In this document: positions 13,535 through 18,419 of the stretch, piece after piece
Layout: every line of letters begins with the position of its first letter
Numbering within the stretch: position 1 is the first letter of the stretch
Source: a virus
Direction: 5' to 3' (one strand)
IMG/VR virus record: IMGVR_UViG_3300032331_001926
Span: 1-29,527 of that record
DNA length: 29,527 bases
The notes under the pieces: generated by a model
What the model was told of the DNA's origin: nothing
What the model saw: the letters and a program-made list of their open reading frames with translations, nothing else
Database searches by the model: none
Made by a program: the position numbers and the translations under genes

Positions 13535-13798
13535 ATGTCTATTAAATTAAAAACAGAAACAGAAAGTAATGTCCTAAAAATGATACTATCGGACATTGAA
13601 TCAAGCCAAACAGGCTTCTCAACTTTGACTAATAATCAAATTGCTGCAGCATTAAATGTATCAGTATTCTCAATAAGAGATAAAATAATCAAATTGGATA
13701 GAGAAAACAAAATCCAAAATGTATTAAACTACTGGCATGAAACAAATGGTAAAAAGGTTTACCATAATAGAGTAATTCATAAAGGTAATGCTTCATAA
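13535..13798 (+). CDS. Winged-helix/HTH DNA-binding protein
   Basis: 87 residues. Residues ~33-62 (TNNQIAAALNVSVFSIRDKI followed by IKLDRENKIQ) form a clear helix-turn-helix of the kind that follows an 'if-condition then next residue' winged-helix pattern, with a beta-hairpin-like end (YWHETNGKKVYHNRVIHKG). It probably regulates transcription of phage genes, possibly its own operon. Its stop overlaps the start of the sigma-like gene by 11 bases, so the two are translated together. Alternative: replication initiator fragment. The HTH itself is convincing; the target is unknown. Confidence 0.65.
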   Translation: MSIKLKTETESNVLKMILSDIESSQTGFSTLTNNQIAAALNVSVFSIRDKIIKLDRENKIQNVLNYWHETNGKKVYHNRVIHKGNAS

Positions 13799-14288
13799 AT
13801 GGATTGAAGAAAATTATGGGGAATTGAAAACTATTTGTAAACTAATAAGTAATGCGGATAATGTAGATGATTTATTACATGTCTGTATAGAGCAACTTTT
13901 CAAGAGCAAGAAAATCCACGATATTCCTGACCGAGAAAAGTTGTTTTATTTTACAAAAATAGCAAAGAATAATTTTTATTCCAAGACAGCTCCCTATAAT
14001 CAAATCTACAACCGTAGAACCTTTTCAAGTTTTATTGATTATGATATTCCTGATACAGAATACCAGGAGGAACAAATCAATATAAATTGGGTTAAAGAAC
14101 AACTAACAAAATTAAAAAAAGATAATTGGTATTATGCAAGGTTAATGGAATTGTATATTGAAGAGGATTGCTCCATTACAAAATTATCCAAGAAAACTAC
14201 AATACCTATAAATAGTGTTTCAAGGGATATAAATAAAATAAGAAAACAATTAAAACAAATCAGAGATGACTTTAGAAATAACAACTGA
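13788..14288 (+). CDS. RNA polymerase sigma-like factor
   Basis: 166 residues in two parts. Residues ~20-75 (NADNVDDLLHVCIEQLFKSK, then LFYFTKIAKNNFYSK) match the layout of sigma region 2: DDL, a helix, and an aromatic helix. Residues ~115-160 (MELYIEEDCSITKLSKKT, then NSVSRDINKIRKQLKQI) match a region 4 helix-turn-helix. The whole is the size of an ECF-type sigma factor and resembles sigma-like proteins annotated in Bacteroidota phages. It is the obvious candidate to direct host polymerase to the TATATTTATTAGTA motif at structural genes. Coupled to the upstream HTH gene by an 11-base overlap. Confidence 0.7.
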   Translation: MLHKWIEENYGELKTICKLISNADNVDDLLHVCIEQLFKSKKIHDIPDREKLFYFTKIAKNNFYSKTAPYNQIYNRRTFSSFIDYDIPDTEYQEEQININWVKEQLTKLKKDNWYYARLMELYIEEDCSITKLSKKTTIPINSVSRDINKIRKQLKQIRDDFRNNN

Positions 14289-14709
14289 TGGAAAAATATA
14301 CCTTGATGATAAAGAAAAAAAGCAATGGTATAATAAGGGATATAAAATGGTGTGGTTACAAGGTAAAAATGTTTATGTTCACAGATTAGTAGCAACAGAA
14401 CATATCCCCAATCCAAATAACTATCCTTGTATAAATCATATTAACGGATTAAAAGATGATAATAGGATTGAAAACTTGGAATGGTGCACAGTTAAAATGA
14501 ATAGAGACCATGCAAAATTATTAGGATTATTACAAAATATAGTTCATAATAATCATTTCAACGAACAACAAGTTGAAGAAATTAAAGCAAAATATATTCA
14601 AGGAAAATATGGTTATAGAAAACTTGCAAAGGATTATAGCGTGACAAATAGCACTATTAAATCTATTATTAAAGAACAAACATATAATAAATCATACATA
14701 AAATACTAA
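14266..14709 (+). CDS. HNH homing endonuclease
   Basis: 147 residues. The HNH_3-type core runs from VYVHRLVATEHIPN (H39) through CINHINGLKDDNRIENLEWC (H58, N70) to N79/H82. A C-terminal DNA-recognition segment (~97-140, EQQVEEIKAKYIQGKYGYRK followed by LAKDYSVTNSTIKSII) is a helix-turn-helix like those of intron-encoded nucleases. Free-standing homing endonucleases of this type spread by cutting cognate sites lacking the gene. The start lies inside the last codons of the sigma-like gene (23-base overlap), which suggests insertion at the sigma gene's 3' end. No intron or intein is seen around it. Confidence 0.85.
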   Translation: MTLEITTDGKIYLDDKEKKQWYNKGYKMVWLQGKNVYVHRLVATEHIPNPNNYPCINHINGLKDDNRIENLEWCTVKMNRDHAKLLGLLQNIVHNNHFNEQQVEEIKAKYIQGKYGYRKLAKDYSVTNSTIKSIIKEQTYNKSYIKY

Positions 14710-14712
14710 ACT

Positions 14713-15021
14713 ATGGGTTGTAATTGCGGTAAAAACAAAGTTGATACTTCCAAAGTTAAAGTTCAACAAACAGAAGATAAGGTAATTGAAATTATAGATA
14801 TACCAGCACCACCTTATACAATTGAAGATGTAATCAGGATTAAAGATTATTATTTTTCAACAAATAAAACAGAAACAGAAAAACAATTTGTAGCAGATAT
14901 ATTGCTCCGTTCATTTGGGGATATTATACCTTCATATTGCGACCAAGTTTGCTTAAGACAAATTAAAACAAAAGCAGATTATATGGAGCAAAAAATAATT
15001 GAATATAACAAAAGCAAATAA
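14713..15021 (+). CDS. Small protein with N-terminal CNC motif, unknown
   Basis: 102 residues starting MGCNCGKNK, a short Cys-containing leader that recurs in small proteins of Bacteroidota phages. The rest is acidic and helical, with PAPPYTIEDVIRIKDYYFST and a cluster ending CDQVCLRQIK (two more Cys). Four Cys in total could bind a metal, but spacing fits no known knuckle. It sits between the HNH gene and the ParB-like gene, one base before the latter. Function not recognised. Confidence 0.6.
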   Translation: MGCNCGKNKVDTSKVKVQQTEDKVIEIIDIPAPPYTIEDVIRIKDYYFSTNKTETEKQFVADILLRSFGDIIPSYCDQVCLRQIKTKADYMEQKIIEYNKSK

Positions 15022-15022
15022 T

Positions 15023-15541
15023 ATGGATATACAAATAATAGATATTAACGAAATCAAACCCAATCCAAATAATCCAAGGGTTATTAAAGATGAAAAATAC
15101 CATCAATTAGTAAAATCAATTAAGGAGTTTCCAAAAATGTTGGAAATAAGACCAATTGTGGTTAATGAAGATATGATTGTATTAGGTGGTAATATGCGTC
15201 TAAAAGCATGTAAACAAGCAGGGTTAAAGGAACTACCAATAATAAAAGCATCTACATTAACGGAGGAAGAACAAAGGGAATTCATTATCAAGGACAATGT
15301 AGGTTATGGAGAGTGGGACTGGCAACAATTAACAAATGATTGGGATACAGAACAATTGCAAGATTGGGGATTAGATTTACCTGATTTTACAATTGCTGAA
15401 GAAAAAGACCCAAATGATATAAGTGATACAATAAAACAAGAATATAGAATTGAAATAATCCTTCCAACAGAAGAATTACAAGAATTAACCTATAATAAAC
15501 TAATTGAAGAAGGATACGAATGCCGCATTTTAACATTGTAA
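15023..15541 (+). CDS. ParB/Srx-fold (ParB-like) nuclease domain protein
   Basis: 172 residues from the ATG at 15023; an in-frame ATG at 14999 would overlap the previous gene and is not favoured. Residues 11-19 (IKPNPNNPR) and 53-67 (VLGGNMRLKACKQAG) are the two ParB-fold motifs, with the GG.MR segment in place of the usual GGHRR. KDNVGYGEWDWQQL and DWGLDLPDF follow, a tail common to phage ParB-like proteins associated with DNA modification enzymes. Such domains bind DNA or nucleotides (CTP in chromosomal ParB) and some nick DNA. It overlaps the next gene by 22 bases, implying that the two products act together. Confidence 0.8.
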   Translation: MDIQIIDINEIKPNPNNPRVIKDEKYHQLVKSIKEFPKMLEIRPIVVNEDMIVLGGNMRLKACKQAGLKELPIIKASTLTEEEQREFIIKDNVGYGEWDWQQLTNDWDTEQLQDWGLDLPDFTIAEEKDPNDISDTIKQEYRIEIILPTEELQELTYNKLIEEGYECRILTL

Positions 15542-16605
15542 AAGAAAGTAAACCAACCAAAACATTTAGGGTTGCATCCATTATCGGTAAGTTTGATTTG
15601 GAATCAGAGCATATTATAGAACAATTCCAAGGAGATATTGATATTGATGACAACTGGCAAATAGGTTTAATAGTTGGTAAATCTGGGACAGGAAAATCCA
15701 CAATAGCCAAACAACTATTTGAGAAAGCATATATTACCAATTTTGATTATGAAGCAGAAACGGTATTAGATGATATGCCAAAAAATAAATCAGTTGAAGA
15801 AATAACTGCAGCATTTAATTCAGTTGGTTTTAGTTCCCCTCCATCTTGGTTAAAACCTTATGCAGTATTATCCAACGGACAAAAAATGCGTGTGGACCTA
15901 GCTAGAGCAATATTAAGTGAAGATGAATTATTTGTGTTTGATGAGTTTACAAGTGTGGTGGATAGAAATGTAGCACAAATAGGTTCATTTGCAATGCAAA
16001 AGGCAATAAGGAAAACAAAGAAAAAGTTTATAGCTGTAACCTGTCATTTTGACGTAACGGATTGGTTAATGCCAGATTGGATATTTGATACTGATACAAT
16101 GACTTTCACCAAAACTGAAGGTCAAAAAAAAAATAGACCAGAAATCAAGTTTGAGATATTCTCCGCAACAGATAAGAGCATCTGGAAAATGTTTGCTAAA
16201 CACCATTATTTAAGTCATTACCATAATAACGCAGCAAATGTTTATGTAGCTTTAATTAACGGAGAAATTGCGGGGTTTTTATCAGCAAAGATATTCCCCC
16301 ACCCAAAAGCAAAGAACATTATCAAGGTTCACAGACTAGTTATATTACCAGATTATCAAGGTGCAGGATTTGGTATAAAGTTTTTGGAGGAGATAGGTAA
16401 TTATTATAGGAGTAAAGGTTATAGATTTACCATTACTACTTCAGCACCAGCATTGATAAATGCATTAAAAAAATCTGCTTTATGGGCTGCAACAAGATTC
16501 GGTAGGTTAATAACCAACCACACAAAAGGACGCAAAGGTCACATGGGTGGGGATAGTTCCAACAGAATAACAGCAAACTTTGAGCTACATAAAAGCAGAG
16601 TATAA
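15520..16605 (+). CDS. ABC-type ATPase fused to a GNAT (Mom-like) acyltransferase
   Basis: 361 residues. The ATPase half has Walker A GKSGTGKST (53-61), ABC signature LSNGQ (117-121), Walker B LFVFDE (137-142) and an H-loop His in TCHFD (H176). The second half (~212-345) is a GNAT fold, with KHHYLSHYH (228-235), NGEIAGF (247-253) and the acetyl-CoA loop QGAGFG (280-285). The HHY segment recalls the KYHYS motif of Mu Mom, a GNAT that modifies adenines. There are no membrane segments, so this is not a transporter subunit. Translational overlap with the ParB-like gene suggests a DNA-directed complex, perhaps hypermodifying phage DNA. Fusion and motifs are clear; the reaction is inferred. Confidence 0.82.
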   Translation: MPHFNIVKESKPTKTFRVASIIGKFDLESEHIIEQFQGDIDIDDNWQIGLIVGKSGTGKSTIAKQLFEKAYITNFDYEAETVLDDMPKNKSVEEITAAFNSVGFSSPPSWLKPYAVLSNGQKMRVDLARAILSEDELFVFDEFTSVVDRNVAQIGSFAMQKAIRKTKKKFIAVTCHFDVTDWLMPDWIFDTDTMTFTKTEGQKKNRPEIKFEIFSATDKSIWKMFAKHHYLSHYHNNAANVYVALINGEIAGFLSAKIFPHPKAKNIIKVHRLVILPDYQGAGFGIKFLEEIGNYYRSKGYRFTITTSAPALINALKKSALWAATRFGRLITNHTKGRKGHMGGDSSNRITANFELHKSRV

Positions 16606-16618
16606 AACATAGAATATT

Positions 16619-17026
16619 ATGGCAAAAGAAATACCAGGAAAATACGGTGGAAAACTTGTAACCTGGGAAAAAGGAGAAAGTGGAAATCCAAAAGGAAGAC
16701 CCAAAAAACCTGTCCTAGCAATGAAAATTGAAGGATATAAATTAGCAGAAATAAATGATACAATACAATCTATGTGTAGCATGGATTTAGACCAATTGAA
16801 AAAAATATGGGATAATCCAAAAGCAACGGTATTAGAAAAGACAATTGCATCAGCATTAAGAAAATCTATTGAAAAAGGTAATTTGGATTCCATAGAAACC
16901 TTAATGAATAGAGTATATGGTAAACCAAAAGATAGTTTGGATATTACCACACAAGGAGACAAGATTGATTCCAATAAAATACAAATTGAAATAATCCAAC
17001 CAAAACAAGATGGCAAAGACAATTAG
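16619..17026 (+). CDS. Terminase small subunit-like protein (GNPKGRP motif)
   Basis: 135 residues. KGESGNPKGRPKKP (residues ~19-32) is the DUF5681-type signature found in phage small terminase and DNA-binding proteins. A helical region follows (DQLKKIWDNPKATVLEKTIASALRKSIEKG, split as two helices ~58-88), then LMNRVYGKPKDSLDI, a motif common just before the C-terminus of these proteins. It would recognise the packaging site and hand DNA to the large terminase, whose gene is ~250 bases downstream. Its last codons overlap a 39-residue basic ORF. Identity is probable; a scaffold-like DNA-binding role is the alternative. Confidence 0.7.
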   Translation: MAKEIPGKYGGKLVTWEKGESGNPKGRPKKPVLAMKIEGYKLAEINDTIQSMCSMDLDQLKKIWDNPKATVLEKTIASALRKSIEKGNLDSIETLMNRVYGKPKDSLDITTQGDKIDSNKIQIEIIQPKQDGKDN

Positions 17027-17129: not shown

Positions 17130-17335
17130 TGGCTAAATCAAAATTAAGGGGAGGCGCTAAAGCTCACCGAGCAAAAGTCCAAAAAAGAAACGAGAATATT
17201 CAAGTTAGATTGAATAAAGCAAATAAGGTAGTTTGGGACAATTACTATAAATGGAAAGCAGAACAAGAACAACTTAATGGCAATCAAAGTCAAAACAACG
17301 AAGGTATTTCAGGATTTAATTTCACAGAACAATAG
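17129..17335 (+). CDS. Small basic protein between terminase genes
   Basis: 68 residues with a basic N-terminal half (AKSKLRGGAKAHRAKVQKRN) and a short Trp/Tyr helix (KANKVVWDNYYKWKAEQEQL), then a Gln/Asn-rich tail. The ATG overlaps the stop of the 39-residue ORF by one base, and its last 59 bases overlap the start of the large terminase gene in another frame. Similar short basic proteins occur near terminase genes of Bacteroidota phages. A DNA-binding packaging accessory is plausible; function is not established. Confidence 0.6.
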   Translation: MAKSKLRGGAKAHRAKVQKRNENIQVRLNKANKVVWDNYYKWKAEQEQLNGNQSQNNEGISGFNFTEQ

Positions 17336-18419
17336 GATATGTGTGTTCCAAGGTTCATCAAGAGCAAGTAAAACATATAACATACTAATTTATTTTGTGT
17401 ATAAATTATTGCAGGAGGACAATAAGGTATTATCTTTAATCCGTAAAACACTCCCCGCCCTGAAAGGGTCTGTGCTTCGTGACCTAAAGCAAATACTAAT
17501 TGATTTTGGGGTTTATCACCAAGATAAATGGCATTCCGTAGATGGTTATTTTGAGTTAGGAACCAATATTATTGAGTGGTTTAGCGTTGATGATGAAACT
17601 AAACTCCGTGGTAGAAAACGTGATTATCTATTCATAAATGAAGCAACAGAAGTATCCTATGATGAATATATCCAATTGTTATTAAGAACAAGTGATAGAG
17701 TGGTAATTGATTTTAACCCCTCATTATGGAATAGTTGGATATATGATTTGGAAGGTGAACCTGATGTGTTTTATACCATTACAACCTATAAGGATAATCC
17801 ATTTTTATCTCAAATACAAATTGATACAATAGAAGCATTAAAGGATAAAGACCCCAATATGTGGAGGGTATTTGGATTAGGACAAAAAGGACAGCCAACA
17901 AGATTAGTATTTAACCATCAAAAGTTTTATGAAGAATTACCCCAAGGAGCAAAGCTATTAGGATACGGTATAGATTGGGGATTTAATGACCCATGCACAT
18001 TAGTTAAGATTTCAAGGTTAGATGATTCCATTTATTGTGAAGAATTATTATATCTAAAAAATGTGACTATCCCAGATTTCATATACAAGATTAAGGATTT
18101 AGGATTAAACTTAAATGATGATTATATTGCGGATAGTGCTAATCCCCAATCCATAGAGGAACTAAAAAGGAACGGAATAAATTGCAAACCAGTCAAAAAA
18201 AATTCAATATTACACGGAATAGATTTAGTTAAAAGACACAACTTTTATGTAAACAAATATTCCAAAAACCTTATTGATGAATTAAATAACTATGTTTGGA
18301 AAAGTGATAAGAACGGAAACAATTTAGATGAACCTGTGGATAATGATAATCACATTTTGGACGGTATTAGATATGTCCTTGAAATGAAAAACAAACCAGC
18401 AGGTGTATTTGTTTATTAA
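17277..18419 (+). CDS. terL: Terminase large subunit
   Basis: 380 residues. The ATPase domain has a Walker A variant GSSRASKT (26-33), Walker B YLFINE (117-122) and the coupling motif DFNP (145-148). The C-terminal RNase H-like nuclease has its acidic residues at D233 (GIDWGF), D286 (ADSANP) and D362 (NHILDGIRY). The layout matches PBSX/Terminase_3-type large subunits, which pump DNA into the prohead and cut it. Start at 17277 lies within the preceding basic-protein gene by 59 bases, an unusually long overlap but the only start that keeps the conserved N-terminus. The late-type motif at 18440 follows. Confidence 0.93.
   Translation: MAIKVKTTKVFQDLISQNNRICVFQGSSRASKTYNILIYFVYKLLQEDNKVLSLIRKTLPALKGSVLRDLKQILIDFGVYHQDKWHSVDGYFELGTNIIEWFSVDDETKLRGRKRDYLFINEATEVSYDEYIQLLLRTSDRVVIDFNPSLWNSWIYDLEGEPDVFYTITTYKDNPFLSQIQIDTIEALKDKDPNMWRVFGLGQKGQPTRLVFNHQKFYEELPQGAKLLGYGIDWGFNDPCTLVKISRLDDSIYCEELLYLKNVTIPDFIYKIKDLGLNLNDDYIADSANPQSIEELKRNGINCKPVKKNSILHGIDLVKRHNFYVNKYSKNLIDELNNYVWKSDKNGNNLDEPVDNDNHILDGIRYVLEMKNKPAGVFVY

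Follow-up and report, generated by a model that had tools for sequence, protein, structure and literature searches.

A phage ParB-like protein paired with an ABC-ATPase/GNAT fusion in a swap slot for DNA-modification genes: a probable DNA-base acylation cassette

Proteins that couple a GNAT domain to an ABC ATPase have been predicted to carry out acyl modification of DNA bases (Iyer 2013), a prediction restated in a 2021 comparative study that gives Tenacibaculum phage pT24 as an example of the family (PMC7824862). ParB-fold proteins and/or ABC ATPases, represented by DpdB and DndB/DndD, are described as partners in deazaguanine and phosphorothioate DNA modification (PMC12839542, PMC10853773). 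Here we describe a ParB-like gene and an overlapping gene for an ABC-ATPase/GNAT fusion (ABC-GNAT) in the virus record IMGVR_UViG_3300032331_001926, of which positions 1 to 29,527, the whole stretch analysed, are referred to below as the window. The pair is real, widespread and belongs to the predicted family. We conclude that it is probably a phage DNA-modification cassette performing coenzyme A (CoA)-dependent acylation of a DNA base, and that DNA is very probably its target, whether by this or by another transfer chemistry. The basic idea is not new, because base acylation by GNAT–ABC-ATPase proteins had already been predicted in print, as the 2021 study records (PMC7824862), and no experimental test of the ABC-GNAT family was found in the literature searched. 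Judged against that literature, four things are new: the slots in which cassettes are swapped, a ParB tail that is specific to its partner and also occurs free, the linkage to Com and a candidate frameshift.

A preliminary description of this DNA had proposed a ParB-fold gene overlapping an ABC-ATPase/GNAT fusion by 22 bases, and both the open reading frames and Pfam agree with it: the pair matches ParB_N (PF02195, 1.5e-8), ABC_tran (6.6e-10) and Acetyltransf_1 (2.8e-9), and an overlap of this length is shared by most of the IMG/VR relatives and by 21 GTDB loci (coordinates in Table 1). The ParB-like reading frame has an alternative in-frame TTG at 14999. Over its full length the fusion belongs to PHROG 11143 (2e-99, residues 6-341), a family without a named function, and it is homologous to the pT24 protein (34.7% identity over 83%, E 1e-47). 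Its ATPase is complete, as had been claimed, with Walker A GKSGTGKST (residues 53-61), the signature LSNGQ (117-121), Walker B LFVFDE with its glutamate (137-142) and the H-loop H176; 87 diverse homologues show no variation at G53, K59, L117, S118, G120, D141, E142 or H176. The GNAT half scores above the cut-offs for Acetyltransf_1/7; in it the same 87 homologues all keep W222, F225, H229, Y230, L231 and R272, and the residues of the Q/RxxGxG/A-type CoA loop (Q280, G281, G283, G285) are present in 93-99% of homologues. The AlphaFold models have a mean predicted local distance difference test score (pLDDT) of 91.3 for the fusion and 89.2 for the GNAT half alone, and structural comparison places the ABC part near HlyB and other nucleotide-binding domains. 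Judged from these motifs, the fusion is an intact ATPase joined to an intact acyl-CoA-type GNAT. The window's pair contains no permease, as previously noted, and DNA-modification enzymes replace ABC-GNAT in related slots; an ABC transporter was rejected on both grounds.

The argument for DNA as the target comes from gene context: at three different slots, ABC-GNAT stands where other phages have Mom, a methyltransferase, TET or another DNA-modification gene. In the window the pair sits between a small cysteine-rich gene (MGCNC) and a small-terminase-like gene, and the region between these two flanks was surveyed in relatives of the window's large terminase. The upstream DNA sufficed for this in 43 relatives, of which 10 have ParB and none ABC-GNAT; where both flanks are present (37 loci), the slot is empty in 28. 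In each of the ten with ParB, a DNA-modification gene belongs to the cassette or is fused to ParB, the occupants including TET/JBP oxygenases, TET-associated glycosyltransferases (TAGT), amino acid:DNA transferases (ADDT), Mom proteins and an N6_N4_Mtase fusion (Table 1). Since several of these loci are identical or related (L485 equals L488 in sequence, L489 shares their next gene, and L497 is related to both L511 and L514), they represent about six to eight distinct alleles. The gene contents compared show a slot at which DNA-modification cassettes are swapped; the window's allele is ABC-GNAT. Full identity of the slot is limited to the window and its terminase relatives and does not extend to every ABC-GNAT phage, since the MGCNC gene was found upstream of ABC-GNAT in none of 113 other IMG/VR loci; the small-terminase-like gene lies downstream in 49 of the 113.

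Some occupants of the slot comprise several genes. After ParB, two loci (L511 1842-4578, L514 1773-4437) have a glutamine amidotransferase, an amino acid:DNA transferase, a P-loop kinase and a TET/JBP gene, and a third (L497 1415-3751) has a multi-gene cassette of which the TET/JBP gene alone has a Pfam match; all three look like multi-step base hypermodification pathways.

A second exchange is seen in Arthrobacter phages. In phage EastWest the order is hypothetical gene–ParB–ABC-GNAT–...–AlpA-like–clamp, and in phage LeeroyJ it is hypothetical gene (62% identical to that of EastWest)–ParB (52%)–hypothetical gene–Mom–AlpA-like (83%)–clamp (46%), so that ParB–ABC-GNAT has been exchanged for ParB–Mom between homologous flanks. 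The third setting is that of Mu-like contigs, in which a homologue of Com (PF10122, down to 4e-20) precedes ABC-GNAT in 70 of 80. Com is described as activating translation of Mu mom (PMC6483171). In Mu, com-mom lies at the right end, an arrangement resembled by Com–ABC-GNAT at the contig ends of Mu-like phages: in 18 of the 80 copies no more than 60 nt separate the end of the ABC-GNAT gene from that of the contig, and ten of these 18 contigs have a Mu transposase domain (PF02914 being a poor detector of Mu-like transposases and PF09299 a better one). A Mom search that detects Mu, LeeroyJ and Appa found no Mom in any of the 18.

Homologues of ABC-GNAT are numerous, with matches in 81 INPHARED records, in at least 190 IMG/VR stretches for the single protein and 594 for the alignment, and in 432 GTDB stretches; the lactococcal ABC part as query gave 6 loci only. 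The loci kept were the best 80 per scan and are often close relatives, so that counts from them are not counts of independent events. The pairing of ParB with ABC-GNAT recurs, with ParB directly upstream in 134 of 134 eligible IMG/VR loci, at an overlap of 18-28 nt throughout, and within 3 kb upstream in 69 of 73 GTDB loci; this pairing is not due to chance. The GTDB copies examined look like prophages, because they adjoin terminase, capsid and integrase genes. A host immunity system was considered and rejected, as PADLOC yields only generic ATPase matches for the ABC part and the GTDB copies look prophage-borne.

We consider it highly improbable that the ParB-like protein is a partition or nuclease protein standing next to ABC-GNAT by accident. 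The protein does have a ParB_N domain, as partition ParBs do, and remote similarity to Spo0J/ParB structures, but the near-complete linkage, the conserved overlap and the survival of its tail alone beside ABC-GNAT after loss of the ParB domain (below) are all left unexplained by an incidental neighbour. Of the other features of canonical partition ParB, neither a helix-turn-helix parS-binding domain nor a C-terminal dimerisation domain was recognised in its 172 residues, TIGR00180 stays below its cut-off and matches only residues 4-77, and the next gene is ABC-GNAT, not ParA. The best matches of the domain are to models of methyltransferase-fused ParBs, namely PHROG 498 (DNA methyltransferase, 1e-29) and PADLOC MTase_II (2e-11), and in relatives a DNA-modification enzyme directly follows the homologous N-domain or is fused with it. 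From these relatives we infer that the window's ParB is likewise the companion of a DNA-modification enzyme.

The two parts of this ParB differ in their conservation. The N-domain is 51-69% identical to the ParBs of its slot-mates (those next to TET, TAGT, ADDT and Mom, and the methyltransferase fusion), whereas the last 47 residues are essentially unalignable with theirs, with 3-9 identical positions. Among ABC-GNAT loci the tail is kept, with the hidden Markov model consensus fRIEVeCeDEeeQeeLYnrLteEGYkCRLLTL from 213 loci. ParB adjoins Mom of the LeeroyJ type in 58 of 59 loci, those ParBs ending in a CxxC zinc-ribbon-like tail, and adjoins Mu-type Mom in none of 31. In the Mu-like copies, 80 relatives of that of Pseudomonas phage Komp_PAO1_1, no ParB domain was found, and in all 80 a short free open reading frame matching the tail precedes ABC-GNAT. 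Since the N-domain is shared across partners, the tail is partner-specific and the tail alone persists in the Mu-like copies, we infer a plug-in adaptor in which ABC-GNAT would dock on the tail, while the N-domain would serve for targeting and could be lost. More tentatively, and with somewhat less confidence than doubt, one ParB-type adaptor might be a general loader for otherwise unrelated DNA modifiers (methyltransferase, Mom, TET/JBP, TET-associated glycosyltransferase, amino acid:DNA transferase and ABC-GNAT), its partner set by an exchangeable tail; here it would load an ATP-driven acyltransferase making an acylated base, which a formyltransferase would elaborate in some Mu-like phages. 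No description of such a general companion role was found in the accessible parts of the literature on Mom, ParB and TET. Escherichia phage PhiR41_1 (L098 1656-4553) has two tandem ParB-like genes followed by separate ABC and weak GNAT genes, an arrangement that we regard as a more distant, unfused version of the cassette.

In the mechanism that we propose, the ParB N-domain would engage DNA and/or a nucleotide, and the C-terminal tail would dock on or recruit ABC-GNAT. ATP binding and hydrolysis by an ABC dimer would clamp or distort the DNA, so that a base would reach the GNAT pocket, where an acyl group would be moved from acyl-CoA, the presumed donor, to the exocyclic amine of the base. 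The modified base would shield phage DNA from restriction or other bacterial defence.

Several points weigh against this proposal. The contigs behind the contextual counts are related and do not amount to independent events, five sampled phages (L089, L090, L091, L095, L096) have neither ParB nor the tail upstream, and the GNAT half resembles protein N-acetyltransferases in fold and lacks a family-level relation to Mom. The best PDB matches of its model are canonical GNATs with Z 14-15, the RimI/Naa50-type acetyltransferases and other N-acetyltransferases being nearest, and TIGR01575 (RimI) is the top NCBIfam match of ABC-GNAT, though sub-threshold. These resemblances, together with phage GNATs that modify host proteins as described in PMC7824862, are what would be expected if the GNAT acetylated a protein, such as host RNA polymerase, a ribosomal protein, a nucleoid protein or ParB itself, with the ABC part as a regulatory ATPase. 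We regard a protein target as unlikely, since it leaves unexplained the swaps with Mom, TET, TAGT, ADDT and methyltransferase, the Com linkage and the shared ParB. By analogy with TmcA/NAT10, in which an ATPase and a GNAT are likewise combined to make N4-acetylcytidine, RNA or tRNA might be the target, and there are tRNA genes near some copies (L003, L004) and a weak match to the TmcA/NAT10 domain GNAT_acetyltr_2 (PF13718; E 0.049, 13.4 bits against a cut-off of 24.6). The ATPase is of the ABC and not the helicase type, however, DNA is indicated both by ParB and by the nature of the slot, and no tRNA gene or Rfam element was found in the window, so that we give an RNA target very little credence.

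The preliminary description had based its proposal of DNA modification on a Mom-like GNAT half, citing a KHHYLSHYH and an NGEIAGF motif. DNA modification is strongly supported by the slot swaps and by the ParB type shared with LeeroyJ-type Mom, but the Mom-like basis fails at the family level. The HHYL residues stood up as conserved, H229, Y230 and L231 being invariant, and NGEIAGF proved to be no conserved signature. The Mom family model PF25680, which detects the positive controls Mu, LeeroyJ and Appa, has no match in the window record, and hhalign gave the GNAT half a probability of 0.8% against a Mom profile built from only 7 sequences. Direct homology with Mom was therefore rejected at the family level on the PF25680 and hhalign results. 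Canonical GNATs head the 50 structural matches listed for the GNAT half; Mom structure 8bv8 is not among these 50, an absence that carries no weight either way. The Mom model does give a sub-threshold score of 14.8 bits (cut-off 27.1) on the HYLS region of a relative in Pasteurella phage Pmp13, and this motif might reflect a distant kinship with Mom, short of family membership. To judge by its context ABC-GNAT acts as Mom does, yet it is no Mom by family criteria.

Some neighbouring genes give clues to the chemistry of the transfer. A formyltransferase (PF00551) directly follows ABC-GNAT in 19 of the 60 Mu-like copies with room for it, and also in a Porphyromonas copy; as a hint only, this would fit formylation of a transferred amino group as a possible second modification step. 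If the GNAT fold were used on DNA for a transfer other than CoA-dependent acylation, as in the carbamoylmethylation by Mom, ATP might serve to activate the donor. Such a reaction would suit the occupation of Mom's own slots, the naming of Mom as a methylcarbamoylase in the PDB and the formyltransferase, which suggests further chemistry on the added group. The QGxGxG acyl-CoA loop is nearly invariant, though, at roughly the place where Mu Mom reads DDMPRNSES, and we judge a transfer of this kind improbable, albeit deserving of some weight, and continue to favour acylation from CoA. A further clue, likewise only a hint as to the chemistry, is an ASCH-domain protein that adjoins ABC-GNAT in three Firmicutes-type copies. 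One member of the ASCH proteins, YqfB, acts as an N4-acylcytosine amidohydrolase and strips acyl groups from N4-acylcytosine derivatives (PMC6972931).

Although the window's ABC-GNAT is a single reading frame, the ABC and GNAT halves of eight Firmicutes-type copies with two intact frames lie in different frames. Because GNAT is consistently shifted to -1, both frames stay open together over about 100 nt and a T-run lies near the ABC/GNAT junction in most of the eight, the sequences suggest candidate programmed -1 frameshifting, which would give ABC alone as well as the fusion. In pT24 the GNAT half is interrupted by an in-frame TGA (L095 3706-3708) and annotated as two genes, through decay, sequencing error or recoding.

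The surroundings of the cassette modify two further points of the preliminary description. The neighbouring gene that it called a small terminase matches unnamed PHROGs only, although the large terminase does follow, and its suggestion that terminase proximity points to action at packaging is not sustained, as the proximity follows simply from where the swap slot lies. Immediately upstream of the cassette, an HNH endonuclease gene (14266-14709) overlaps a sigma-factor-like gene (13788-14288) and looks like a homing endonuclease.

Table 1. Coordinates of features in the window and in related loci (L numbers)
Feature	Position	Strand	Basis or remarks
ParB-like gene	15023..15541	+	172 aa from ATG, ParB_N domain plus C-terminal tail
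ParB N-domain (residues 1-125)	15023..15397	+	comparison with slot-mate ParBs
ParB C-terminal tail (residues 126-172)	15398..15541	+	proposed ABC-GNAT docking module
Overlap of ParB-like and ABC-GNAT genes	15520..15541	+	22 nt
ABC-ATPase/GNAT fusion	15520..16605	+	361 aa, PHROG 11143
ABC ATPase domain (residues 1-204)	15520..16131	+	Pfam, conserved motifs, fold match
GNAT domain (residues 205-361)	16132..16602	+	Pfam, conservation, structure model
HHYL motif (residues 228-231), candidate substrate or catalytic residues	16201..16212	+	conservation
Acyl-CoA pyrophosphate loop Q280-G-x-G-x-G285	16357..16374	+	conservation
Small cysteine-rich gene (MGCNC), left slot flank	14713..15021	+	comparison with terminase relatives
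Small-terminase-like gene (GESGNPKGRPKK), right slot flank	16619..17026	+	unnamed PHROGs only
Large terminase subunit	17277..18419	+	PHROG 2, 1e-33
Tet_JBP oxygenase in slot	L451, L497, L509, L511, L514
TET-associated glycosyltransferase (TAGT) in slot	L485, L488, L489, L509
Amino acid:DNA transferase (ADDT) in slot	L511, L514
Two Mom proteins in slot	L519
N6_N4_Mtase fused to ParB in slot	L501
Methyltransferase without ParB in slot	L446
Formyltransferase after ABC-GNAT	L092 4122-4595; L097 4074-4691
ASCH-domain protein adjoining ABC-GNAT	L086 4151-4531; L003 5117-5485; L358 4365-4742		Firmicutes-type copies
Split-copy junctions	L003 4579-4681; L086 3573-3678; L087 3576-3678; L091 3465-3561; L358 3485-3590; L359 4070-4172; L360 4079-4181; L362 4061-4166

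Base hypermodification is a main route by which phages get past restriction and other DNA-targeting defences, and new chemistries of this kind are potential tools. The exchange of ABC-GNAT with Mom in slots under ParB or Com control makes what was a domain-based guess testable, with EastWest and LeeroyJ as a sequenced matched pair. If a general ParB adaptor is real, it would also serve as a marker for unknown DNA-modification enzymes, to be sought in whatever gene comes after such a phage ParB.

Among known systems, the RNA cytidine acetyltransferases TmcA and NAT10 also fuse a nucleotide-hydrolysing domain to a nucleobase-acylating GNAT, but differ from ABC-GNAT in their helicase-type ATPase and RNA substrate. 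The Dpd and Dnd systems, compared by their published descriptions, use the TGT homologue DpdA or DndA/DndC, where the catalytic partner in the window is a GNAT. The predicted GNAT–ABC-ATPase family of pT24 has the same architecture and proposed role as the window's pair; the accessible text of PMC7824862 was found to mention for it neither ParB nor the tail peptide, nor Com, nor an exchange of slots with Mom, TET and ADDT, and the 2013 paper may show some of these. ParB-fused DNA methyltransferases (PHROG 498, PADLOC MTase_II and the fusion in L501, to whose ParB domain that of the window is 69% identical) share a homologous ParB domain, with the methylase domain fused to it, whereas ABC-GNAT is encoded by a separate, overlapping gene. 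Mu Mom (PF25680; PDB 8bv8) differs from ABC-GNAT in having neither an ATPase nor the QGxGxG loop, and the two have no family-level sequence match. Like ABC-GNAT, however, Mom is by published account a DNA modifier of the GNAT superfamily, and it is found in the same two settings, the ParB slot of Arthrobacter phages and the Com slot of Mu-like phages.
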